Shown piece after piece: positions 11,229 through 19,007 of a stretch of DNA of 64,000 nt. The DNA is from Thermogemmata fonticola (GTDB lineage: Bacteria; Planctomycetota; Planctomycetia; Gemmatales; Gemmataceae). A program made the translations under genes and the position numbers. The stretch is from positions 62,001-126,000 of the forward strand of contig NZ_JACEFB010000006.1 of NCBI RefSeq assembly GCF_013694095.1, read 5' to 3'. Numbering within the stretch: position 1 is the first letter of the stretch; the number at the start of each line of letters is the position of its first letter. The notes under the pieces are model-generated. The model saw only the letters and a list, made by a program, of their open reading frames with translations. It did not search any database and had not been told where the DNA came from.

Positions 11229-12149
11229 TTACGGAGCACAGGCGATAGGAGGAGAGTCGGCGGCGTGCGGCGGTGGGGGATGGATATTCGGATGAAGGAG
11301 ATGAGCGAGCCATTCGAGGCTATCGACCAGTCGGGGACCAGGTCGGCTGAAATAGGCATTGCCGTCGATCCAGTACACGCGGCCGTTGCGCACGGCGGGG
11401 AGTTGCGCATAACCGGGGTAAGCTTGGAGAATAGGACGGTCCTTTTGAGCACGAGCGATATCGAAGCCGCAGCAGGCAATCACTAGCACTTCTGGCTCTA
11501 CGGCTACGACCTCTTCCCACCGCAAGGTACGGGAGGGGGACCCTTCTCGCCCGATCATTTCGCGCCCGCCTGCCAGACGGATCAATTCCGGCGTCCAGTG
11601 TCCGCAACAGAAAGGGGGATCGATCCATTCCAGTAATACAACACGGGGGCGATAGGTTAGCTGTTCACTGCGTCGGGCGACAGTTTGGACTCGCTGTCGC
11701 AATTCCCTCACAACAGCGGCGGCGCGTTCCGGGACTTGAGCAGCAGTAGCGACCTGATGGAACGTGGCAAATACATCTTCCAGCGATTGCGGCTCCAAAT
11801 TCACGACCGGGGGCTGCCCCGGCAGCGTGCACGCCGCTGCTCGGACTTCCGCCTCCGCTACGGCACAGACATCGCACAAAGCCTGGGTCACCAATAGCTC
11901 CGGGCGTAAGGATTCCAGCACAGGCCAATCCAGGGTATACAGCGCTCGCTGGGTGCGTAGCTTTTCGCGCACCAACTCATCGATCTGCCGGCTACTAGCG
12001 TCCACGGGGATTAAGGAGCGGGTGACGCGGGGCAGATGGCGGACAAACGGCGGTTCATCACATTCGTGTGTAACACCTACCAGTTGATCGCCCAGACCTA
12101 GCCGGCAAATGATTTCTGTAGCGCTAGGTAGCAAGGATACGATGCGCAC
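11229..12149 (-). CDS. BtuF-like cobalamin/iron-siderophore binding protein without signal peptide
   Basis: 306-aa protein of the helical-backbone binding family (BtuF/FhuD/FepB). The start MRIVSLLPSATEIICRLGLGDQLVGVTHECDEP is characteristic of the B12-binding branch. It continues with LRPELLVTQALCDVCAVAEAEV and ends with a typical second lobe (RNGRVYWIDGNAYFSRPGPRLVDSLEWLAHLL). No signal peptide or lipobox is present, so it should be cytoplasmic unless the start is misplaced. GTG 12149 has GGAG about 8 nt upstream. It lies 167 nt downstream of the DUF6580 gene, which follows a cobalamin riboswitch, so a role in B12 or cobamide salvage is likely. No ABC permease or ATPase is adjacent. Confidence 0.85.
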   Translation of the reverse strand: MRIVSLLPSATEIICRLGLGDQLVGVTHECDEPPFVRHLPRVTRSLIPVDASSRQIDELVREKLRTQRALYTLDWPVLESLRPELLVTQALCDVCAVAEAEVRAAACTLPGQPPVVNLEPQSLEDVFATFHQVATAAQVPERAAAVVRELRQRVQTVARRSEQLTYRPRVVLLEWIDPPFCCGHWTPELIRLAGGREMIGREGSPSRTLRWEEVVAVEPEVLVIACCGFDIARAQKDRPILQAYPGYAQLPAVRNGRVYWIDGNAYFSRPGPRLVDSLEWLAHLLHPNIHPPPPHAADSPPIACAP

Positions 12150-12316
12150 AACTTACTCTCCGCAGCAGCACCTTTGGCTACTTTACCGAGTGCGAGGGTC
12201 GCCAGGGAGGTCTGACCCTACCTCGAAGTACAGAAACTGCATAGAGCTAGCTATAGGGCTGGAAAACAGATGGACTAATTCGTGCTCCTGTTTGAAGCAG
12301 GCGGTGCTTCTTGGCG

Positions 12317-12937
12317 TCAAAGAGTAGCTGGTTGTTCGGCCCTTTCGCGGAACAGGGGGAAGAGTCTTTCCGCGAGTGTCACCGTGCCAAACAAGAAGAC
12401 CACAAAGGTGACGTCACCCGCTACGGTATTGCGGAAAAATGGAAGGGCTTTGACGTAGCAGTCGATCAGGCCAGCGAACGTATGGGGATAAGCCATCAGC
12501 CAGCATGCGAAGTTGGTCGTGAGATAGAATTGGATGGAACCGAGGAGAGTGACGGCCGCCAGATTCCCCACTCCCCAGTGATGGCGCAGCCAGCGTCCCA
12601 GAAGGACGTTGCACGCGAAACTACCATAGACCACCGGCATCAGCAGGTGCAAGCCAATGGCGAGATCACTCAGGAATAGCGCTGACAGCGGAAGGGCCAA
12701 GGCCATACGGCGATCCGCGTAGAAAGCCCCCCCGAAGAGGGCCAATGCCCCGATGGGAGTGAAGTTGGGAGGGTGAGGAATCCAGCGTGCCAGAACGGCT
12801 CCGACGATGAGAGCAGCCAGGAGCCAAAAGCGGGGCTGACTCAGTGTAGCGCACCAGGAGGCGTGGGGTGGAACTGTGGGCGTCGTGCAATTTTTGGGGA
12901 ACGATGCGAACGGAGTCAGGTCAGGCAATCCAGACAC
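12317..12937 (-). CDS. DUF6580 membrane protein, putative ECF S-component-like B12 or cobalt transporter
   Basis: 206-aa integral membrane protein. Starting from residue 35 there are about five hydrophobic segments; PNFTPIGALALFGGAF (57-72) right after the first helix is the DUF6580 hallmark and resembles S-components of ECF transporters. Cys109, Cys145 and Cys160 lie in or near helices. The open frame reaches 12982, but GTG 12937 is preferred because GGAGG (12949-12945) sits 7 nt upstream. A cobalamin riboswitch lies 150 nt upstream on the same strand, and a BtuF-like gene follows. B12, cobinamide or cobalt uptake is therefore the best guess, perhaps analogous to the solitary BtuM transporter. 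The substrate is inferred from context only. Confidence 0.78.
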   Translation of the reverse strand: MSGLPDLTPFASFPKNCTTPTVPPHASWCATLSQPRFWLLAALIVGAVLARWIPHPPNFTPIGALALFGGAFYADRRMALALPLSALFLSDLAIGLHLLMPVVYGSFACNVLLGRWLRHHWGVGNLAAVTLLGSIQFYLTTNFACWLMAYPHTFAGLIDCYVKALPFFRNTVAGDVTFVVFLFGTVTLAERLFPLFRERAEQPATL

Positions 12938-13639
12938 GGCACTTCCTCCACTTCGCCGGCACGGGCGAATTCTGGACGGCACTTATTCATCGAGTGGGCA
13001 TACGGCGGTCAGTTCCCGCACCGCACGGGGAAAATGAATACCGACTGACGCCGACGACCCGGCTCCGGGGTGCCGTCGCTTGGGATCACGGCAGGCAGGT
13101 CTTCTGGCTTTCGGCTCAAGCGAACCTCGGCAGCCTTCCCATGACGTGATGTCGTCACAGTGGCATCAGATGCACCAGGTTCTTGCCGATCACAGCAGCG
13201 GCCCTGCGCCGGATTTGCACCGGACTTCCCTGTTACCTCACCCCTGATCCTGGTTCCAGTTTGCGTGGGAGCAAAGCCGATGATCCCACGCCCTGCCCAG
13301 ACACGATCCGTGACCGGGGTGAACCTGCCGCTTGCTCCCATATCTATAAGGAGGGGGAGATCAAGGCTAGAGGTGGTCTTTCCCGAAGGAATGAGGAGGG
13401 AATCTCTGAGTGCTCAGAGCGTAGGCTGAAGATCGTTGGGGCGGTATTGAGGCCGTCATTTCTAGGGCGGAAGGACCGTTGTCGCTCGATATTCGCCAGT
13501 TGCCCTAATGTTGTTTGGGCTTTCATCAGGGTCCTGTCCTTACTAGCATGTCTGTAGGAAAAGATGAAATGCCCGGATTGGCAGCCCCAGGCAGCGAGCG
13601 GATAAATGCCGGCGGGATGGGTTTTAGCACAATAGGGAC
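12938..13639. other. Intergenic region between DUF6580 and cysE
   Basis: Divergent 702-nt region. Its left half is the riboswitch and leader of the DUF6580 gene, including a second small hairpin CCCG...CGGG near 13012-13026. The right half (13330-13639) precedes cysE and contains no frame, repeat or motif that I can support. Confidence 0.6.
13083..13300 (-). promoter_or_regulatory. Cobalamin (B12) riboswitch
   Basis: On the minus strand, reading from about 13300 down, the conserved core appears in order: an upstream hairpin with arms GCGTGGGA/TCCCACGC (13292-13264), GGTAACAGGGAAGTCCGGTG, CAAATCCGGCGCAGGGCCGC, TGCCACTGTGACG, GGGAAGGCTGCC, and the B12 box AGCCAGAAGACCTGCCTGCC at about 13108-13089. 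This is the RF00174 architecture. Immediately downstream is a GC hairpin (GACG...ACCC/GGGT..CGTC, about 13078-13053), probably part of the expression platform. No strong U-run follows, so a translational or antitermination mode cannot be decided. The first gene downstream is the DUF6580 membrane protein. Confidence 0.93.
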
Positions 13640-17864: not shown

Positions 17865-19007
17865 ATGGCTACGGTGCCTGCTAATATCCCTGCCAACACG
17901 CGAACACCTCCACTGCTGCCGGAACGTTTGGAAGAACGATTGCGAGTCGAGGCCCGCCGGCTCGGTTTTTCCCTCTGCGGCATTGCACCAGCAACCGAAG
18001 CGGACACTTATGCTTTCTACCAACATTGGCTAGCTCAGGGATACGCGGGGGAAATGCAGTACTTGCATACTCGTGCGGAAGCCCGCCGACACCCCCGTTC
18101 TATTCTCCAAGATGTGCGGTCTGTCGTCATGCTGGCGATGGACTACGGCCCCCGTCCACTGCACCGTTCGCTCCCGCCCTCCGAAGTTGGTTCTTTCCCC
18201 GGTCGGGTCGCTTTCTACGCTGCCGCCCCTGATTATCATCCCTTTCTCTGGCAGAGACTCAACTTGCTAGCTGATTGGCTGCGGCAGCAGGTGCCGGGAT
18301 GTCAGGCTGTGGGGGTTTGTGATACGGCCCCCCTTCTGGAGCGCGACTTTGCTCGGCGTGCGGGTCTGGGATGGATCGGTAAAAATACCCTTCTGATTCA
18401 TCCTCGTCGCGGTAGCTTTCTGTTCTTGGCAGCCTTGCTCACGGACCTTTCCTTACAGCCGGATGCCCCCTTTTCCTCGCAGCATTGCGGCACCTGCACG
18501 GCCTGCCTGCAAGCCTGTCCCACCCAGGCTTTTCCAGCCCCTTACGTCTTAGATGCTCGGCGCTGCATCAGCTACCTGACCATCGAACATCGTTCCGCCA
18601 TACCTGCGACACTGGCCGAGTCTATAGGAGATTGGCTTTTTGGCTGCGATATCTGTCAGCAAGTTTGCCCCTGGAATCGCAAGCCGCAGACCAGTGAATC
18701 TCCCTTTGTGCACTATCCGGAGTGGGAGTGGTTGGATCCCGTGACGATTTTACGGATGGATGAAGCGACCTTCCGGCAGCGATTCCGTTCGACCGCTCTG
18801 TGGCGGGCCAAGCGCCGGGGCCTGCGCCGCAATGCTGCTATTGTGTTGGGCAATCGCGGAGATACTTCGGTGCTGCCGGTTCTCCAACAAGCAGCCCAAG
18901 ACGCAGACCCCCTTGTCCGGGATGCTGCCCTGTGGGCTATTTCCCGCATCCACCAGCGCTACAGCATTTCGGCGCCAGCATCATCGAACAACACAACAAC
19001 ATACTAG
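17865..19007 (+). CDS. queG: Epoxyqueuosine reductase
   Basis: Cobalamin-dependent iron-sulfur enzyme that reduces epoxyqueuosine to queuosine in the wobble position of tRNAs with GUN anticodons. 380 aa. N-terminal domain includes LGFSLCGIAPA, GEMQYL and RRHPRSILQDVRSVVMLAMDYG. The segment RDFARRAGLGWIGKNTLLIHPRRGSFLFLAALLTDL is diagnostic. Two [4Fe-4S] clusters are supplied by CGTCTACLQACP and CDICQQVCP plus the intervening RRCISYLTIEH. A HEAT-like repeat (AIVLGNRGDTSVLPVLQQAAQDADPLVRDAALWAI) closes the protein, as in the long QueG form. Its cofactor need ties loosely to the B12 locus 5 kb upstream. Confidence 0.95.
   Translation: MATVPANIPANTRTPPLLPERLEERLRVEARRLGFSLCGIAPATEADTYAFYQHWLAQGYAGEMQYLHTRAEARRHPRSILQDVRSVVMLAMDYGPRPLHRSLPPSEVGSFPGRVAFYAAAPDYHPFLWQRLNLLADWLRQQVPGCQAVGVCDTAPLLERDFARRAGLGWIGKNTLLIHPRRGSFLFLAALLTDLSLQPDAPFSSQHCGTCTACLQACPTQAFPAPYVLDARRCISYLTIEHRSAIPATLAESIGDWLFGCDICQQVCPWNRKPQTSESPFVHYPEWEWLDPVTILRMDEATFRQRFRSTALWRAKRRGLRRNAAIVLGNRGDTSVLPVLQQAAQDADPLVRDAALWAISRIHQRYSISAPASSNNTTTY

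Follow-up and report, generated by a model that had tools for sequence, protein, structure and literature searches.

Some bacteria that depend on B12 without producing it have no recognisable BtuCDF, which has led to the long-standing inference that further transporters exist (PMC2667541, PMC6072759). The cobalt ligand of BtuM, Cys80, sits in loop L3 (PMC6072759). For another group, DUF71-B12 (COG2102), a role in the salvage of cobamides has been predicted, according to the part of its description used here (PMC3541065). In the literature searched, we found no mention of DUF6580 (PF20221). This unstudied family fits the B12-transporter gap in several phyla, including Patescibacteria with their reduced genomes. 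Here we describe a DUF6580 locus in a 64,000-nucleotide stretch of Thermogemmata fonticola DNA, hereafter the window. Structure modelling and gene context make it likely that DUF6580 proteins import cobamides and form a new family resembling BtuM, and that the window locus is a B12-repressed cobamide-acquisition operon.

The DUF6580 locus of the window

The original prediction had placed a B12 aptamer on the minus strand, followed by a 206-aa DUF6580 gene and a BtuF-type gene without a signal peptide, with queG nearby; the analysis recovered every one of these elements (Table 1). The riboswitch matched RF00174 over the full aptamer, above the gathering score of 31.5 bits, and was also found, at 108.4 bits, by a purpose-built model (R1) that had been trained partly on this very sequence. 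The DUF6580 protein likewise exceeds the PF20221 gathering threshold, 27 bits, and its nearest relatives are from Gemmataceae. Its start codon lies about 140 nt past the end of the riboswitch. The 201-nt leader did not fold more stably than shuffled sequences (z -0.64), and no expression platform was found in it. Between the aptamer and the DUF6580 gene, a terminator-like hairpin (13055-13040, minus strand), weak and within chance expectation, could serve as one.

Table 1. Features of the DUF6580 locus and the nearby queG gene, in window coordinates.
Feature	Position	Strand	Evidence
Cobalamin riboswitch aptamer (RF00174)	13080..13275	-	cmscan 81.9 bits, E 1.2e-18, model 1-189
Shine-Dalgarno GGAGG of DUF6580 gene, strong	12945..12949	-	read from sequence
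DUF6580 gene, 206 aa, GTG start 12937, stop 12317	12317..12937	-	PF20221 181.3 bits, E 2.1e-53
BtuF-like gene, 306 aa, second in order	11229..12149	-	PF01497 Peripla_BP_2, 67.7 bits
queG, epoxyqueuosine reductase, outside operon	17865..19007	+	TIGR00276 342.6 bits

By sequence, the closest solved relative of the BtuF-like protein is the B12-binding protein 5ysc (E 1.5e-12). Whereas periplasmic BtuF has a signal peptide and a cognate BtuC, neither was found for the window protein (the host genome, G000, has only weak partial FecCD matches). An in-frame stop precedes its first available start codon, and the Peripla_BP_2 domain starts (MRIVSLLPSATEI) right at that codon, which leaves no space for a signal peptide. 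Sixteen signal-less or probably signal-less members have in common the invariant residues His28, Cys30, Cys92-x-x-Cys95 and Cys227; Cys92, Cys95 and Cys227 are missing from acidobacterial BtuF proteins that carry N-terminal extensions. Our best guess is that the subfamily accepts or processes corrinoids in the cytosol.

QueG is a cobalamin-dependent enzyme, and the product of the window gene is a probable consumer of cobalamin. No btuB, btuC or btuD is adjacent to the window DUF6580 locus, as had been noted from the outset; as a trait of the whole system this absence does not hold, since btuB is the commonest partner in other phyla.

Predicted fold and conserved residues

A first AlphaFold model of DUF6580, built from 9 sequences, placed most of the core above pLDDT 90, and a second, AF2 model from 53 sequences reached a mean pLDDT of 94.8 and a pTM of 0.87. 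For both, BtuM was the best solved match in VIA-align (first model against 8ovv: Z 15.7, 158 aligned, rmsd 2.7; second against 8c7p: Z 14.5, 157 aligned, rmsd 2.9). Foldseek also ranked BtuM first for the second model (TM 0.64), at an E-value of 0.11, weak as were the Foldseek E-values for the DUF6580 models generally (0.1 or more). Other S-components came next (Z 8-14), with FolT, RibU, BioY and ThiT at Z about 9-14; unrelated folds mostly scored well below, and only S-component-type folds stood clearly above background. A profile of 53 DUF6580 proteins found no match among PDB sequences at E up to 10. Given the lack of a sequence relation and the weak E-values, BtuM and DUF6580 are said here to have a common fold, and homology is not claimed. 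DUF6580 is predicted to be a six-helix membrane protein with an ECF S-component fold closest to that of BtuM, in line with the S-component-like character first suggested for it.

Near-invariant residues, numbered after the 206-aa window protein, are His55, Asn58-Phe-Thr-Pro61 (L1), His97 (L3), Tyr104, Asn142, Trp146, Tyr150, Gly156, Cys160 and Tyr161; in the models they group on the predicted periplasmic side. Cys109, Cys145 and Cys160 had been proposed as cobalt ligands. Cys160, kept in 90% of the riboswitch-linked members, stays a candidate, but most relatives have Leu in place of Cys109, and Cys145 is mostly replaced by Val. His97 is kept in 88% of the riboswitch-linked members, and their loop L3 has no conserved Cys. 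To judge from helix order, the His97 loop would be equivalent to the BtuM Cys80 loop. An axial cobalt ligand based on a His or on Cys160 is a reasonable proposal from this pattern of conservation.

Riboswitch linkage and operon partners across phyla

In an even sample of the phylum, PF20221 was rare (9 of 149 genomes) and RF00174 was present in 127 genomes. A sense riboswitch lay within 3 kb upstream of the DUF6580 gene in four of the nine genomes, with 0.004 expected by chance (Poisson P about 7e-12); five of the nine genes had no such linkage. When 84,980 species genomes were scanned with a four-sequence DUF6580 alignment, 572 relatives emerged, and the best 80 were kept; since these are the closest relatives, the loci are biased towards the subgroup of the window protein. 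A covariance model built in-house, with some training sequences taken from linked loci, was run over 89 loci and returned 52 riboswitch matches. Almost every one lay ahead of DUF6580 in sense orientation, and just a single weak match was antisense. Matches on the minus strand, as in the window and a few other loci, arise because the DUF6580 genes there are themselves on that strand.

In this wider scan, drawn from the best 80 of 572 relatives, the sequence reached 4 kb or more upstream of the gene at 64 loci, and a sense riboswitch lay within 4 kb upstream in 32 of these. The linked loci came from Planctomycetota, Acidobacteriota, Verrucomicrobiota, Bacteroidota, Ignavibacteriota, Omnitrophota and Patescibacteria. 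When 50 of these genomes were searched with Rfam's RF00174, 39 had riboswitches above the cut-off, with coordinates that agreed where compared by hand. In the Patescibacteria loci L053, L070 and L098, the AdoCbl-II riboswitch (RF01689) stands in for this class. The survey thus upheld the pairing of DUF6580 with B12 control, across two riboswitch classes and beside cobamide-gene partners.

These recurrent partners are btuB, DUF71-B12, the signal-less BtuF-like gene and pduO. The order riboswitch - btuB - DUF6580 was seen in Bacteroidota, Ignavibacteriota, Verrucomicrobiota and Omnitrophota, riboswitch - btuB - DUF71 - DUF6580 in Acidobacteria, and riboswitch - DUF6580 - signal-less BtuF-like - DUF71 in Gemmataceae. 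Two further genomes, G024 and G137, have riboswitch - prepilin-type DUF1559 - small lipoprotein - DUF71 - DUF6580 - BtuF-like. Patescibacteria genomes of 0.8-1.0 Mb retain DUF6580 next to the B12 adenosyltransferase gene pduO: the order is nrdJ - AdoCbl-II riboswitch - DUF6580 - pduO in L053 and L098, where nrdJ encodes the adenosylcobalamin-dependent (class II) ribonucleotide reductase, and L070 has the AdoCbl-II riboswitch and pduO at its DUF6580 locus. All three loci have the appearance of a minimal B12 economy in a very small genome.

The gene neighbours also bear on what is carried. DUF6580 could handle a precursor (cobinamide, dimethylbenzimidazole), or serve cobamide export or recycling, and not the import of complete cobalamin; the frequent DUF71-B12 neighbours, a predicted salvage group in the part of the source used (PMC3541065), would suit such a role, as would the full-length BtuC that co-occurs in Acidobacteria. 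However, the Patescibacteria genes beside pduO, and twice nrdJ, suggest uptake of a complete cobamide, and cobalamin-bound BtuM is the best fold match, so that we regard this alternative as unlikely.

In a mutL-linked Bacteroidales group of 12 loci, no B12 riboswitch was found (L061, L069, L074, L075, L080, L085, L090, L092, L094, L095, L099 and L100). The DUF6580 genes of this group, mainly from Bacteroidales, also lie near rhomboid and endonuclease/phosphatase genes and, in some loci, uvrB. Since S-component folds are used for many vitamins, and since the mutL-linked group and some others are without B12 context, one might suppose that the cargo of DUF6580 is an unrelated small molecule, such as a metal or a different vitamin, and that its link to B12 is no more than shared regulation. 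Two riboswitch classes and the repeated btuB, pduO, DUF71-B12 and BtuF-like partners in many phyla make this very improbable.

Exactly two B12 riboswitches occur in the whole 4.8-Mb host genome. The second, on contig 15 and outside the window, precedes a prepilin-type DUF1559 (SBP_bac_10) gene (L020:8890-9768, minus strand). In many planctomycetes the same DUF1559 subfamily comes after a B12 riboswitch or at the head of a B12-riboswitch operon: it heads the operons of G024, G137 and G087 and is preceded by riboswitches in L131-L134, L144 and L078; once the common N-terminus was removed, twelve riboswitch-associated DUF1559 proteins clustered together. It is likely that this prepilin-type protein is a further partner of the DUF6580 system, and it is possible, though speculative, that it acts as a secreted capture protein in place of BtuB. 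In two Verrucomicrobia (L036, L051) the subfamily adjoins the BtuF-like gene. Separately, two planctomycete genomes have B12 riboswitches before DUF4465 genes (L137, L138, L139), one of them with a PEP-CTERM motif; the DUF4465 domain binds B12 in Bacteroides, according to the excerpt of the report drawn on here (PMC13398666).

B12 economy, proposed route and known systems

CbiC was found in none of 31 DUF6580 genomes, so that no de novo cobamide synthesis is expected and the hosts are B12 auxotrophs by gene content. They use B12: B12-binding domains are present in 29 of the 31, and a PduO-type adenosyltransferase in all 20 genomes tested. Genuine BtuC (260-295 bits) was found in 6 of the 31, all Acidobacteriota, which possess DUF6580 on top of it, the others having none or weak partial matches, and EcfT was present in 7 and not in the other 24; the set consists mainly of metagenome assemblies that are incomplete, which makes single absences weak evidence but not the overall pattern.

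The whole host genome contains no TonB plug domain, and none was found in most Gemmataceae tested. Its three FecCD-family matches are weak and partial, at most 38 bits, and were ruled out as BtuC on that account; a tandem pair among them bears a closer resemblance to an ABC-3 metal permease. The genome does have CbiQ/EcfT, beside which lies an ECF-type ATPase (C2:154 kb), as well as CbiM (C2:74 kb). Of the parallel drawn by the original prediction to a solitary BtuM, the BtuM-like fold therefore stands, and the word solitary is unproven here and cannot be claimed for this genome.

With its S-component fold, DUF6580 might instead be a true cobamide ECF S-component that needs EcfT/EcfA as CbrT does, with the CbiQ-ECF ATPase pair of contig 2 as power source; CbiQ/EcfT occurs in several Gemmataceae relatives as well as in the host, where the ECF-type ATPase is adjacent. 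Yet the 24 genomes without EcfT include G024, G137 and G087, which have related operons, and CbiM is the more obvious partner of the host CbiQ. S-components dock on EcfT through an AxxxA motif in helix 1, and the helix 1 consensus of the DUF6580 family has no clear AxxxA. Dependence on an ECF module is in our view quite unlikely, though an ECF-powered mode is conceivable in the host.

Under the importer reading that we favour, low intracellular cobalamin would permit DUF6580 expression through the riboswitch, and the protein would bind a cobamide at its periplasmic face. The predicted pocket would be formed by L1 (His55-Pro-Pro-Asn-Phe-Thr-Pro), L3 (Gly-x-His97) and, from helices 5 and 6, Asn142, Trp146, Tyr150, Cys160 and Tyr161, with His97 or Cys160 probably near the cobalt. 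DUF6580 would then deliver the bound cobamide into the cytoplasm, where the co-expressed signal-less BtuF-like protein may take over or process the imported corrinoid. The recurrent riboswitch pairing in many phyla, together with the BtuM-like predicted fold, suggests that, for many B12-requiring bacteria that lack the usual uptake machinery, the missing importer of B12 is probably to be found in this family. Riboswitch linkage and model also favour the broader idea, already put forward for the window, of a cobamide uptake or salvage system unlike the classical Btu set. If this is right, DUF6580 would be a second BtuM-like importer family, with an undetectable sequence relation to the first; it would make it easier to predict which bacteria in large uncultured groups depend on B12, and raise the question of His instead of Cys at the cobalt.

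With more doubt than confidence, we extend this to a B12 route in planctomycetes of this group without BtuB-BtuCDF transport proteins, largely under riboswitch control, in which a secreted prepilin-type DUF1559 protein would capture the cobamide, DUF6580 would transfer it across the inner membrane and the cytosolic Cys-signature BtuF-like protein, often with DUF71-B12, would receive and process it. Beside the proposed capture by DUF1559 outside the inner membrane we place the missing TonB receptors of most of these genomes.

How does this system compare with those already described? DUF71-B12 is a neighbour in many DUF6580 operons, but the salvage group was described with btuCDF and cbiB, and neither DUF6580 nor a cytosolic BtuF-like protein appears in the part of that description used here (PMC3541065). 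Like BtuBFCD, the DUF6580 system appears to be a riboswitch-controlled B12 uptake system, with btuB before DUF6580 in many phyla and one BtuF-like partner; unlike it, DUF6580 has no adjacent BtuC/BtuD, and its BtuF-like partner is signal-less and carries the Cys signature. With ECF-CbrT, the B12 S-component of an ECF transporter, it has in common the fold and the proposed substrate, as far as the portion of the CbrT report considered here goes (PMC5997447), whereas most DUF6580 genomes are without EcfT and no ECF module lies beside DUF6580. From BtuM, DUF6580 departs in two features, sequence relation and the L3 cysteine: sequence similarity is undetectable, and where L3 of BtuM has the invariant Cys80, that of DUF6580 has a conserved His, its conserved Cys being at the start of helix 6. 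BtuM is found mainly in Proteobacteria, and DUF6580 in Planctomycetota, Acidobacteriota, Verrucomicrobiota, Bacteroidota, Ignavibacteriota and Patescibacteria. Nevertheless, BtuM of Thiobacillus denitrificans (PMC6072759; PDB 8c7p, 8ovv) is likewise a small, six-helix protein of S-component fold, and the two are alike in their B12-linked gene context and in hosts that mostly lack BtuCD, most DUF6580 genomes lacking EcfT as well; on the modelled fold, DUF6580 is a candidate for the same kind of transport.
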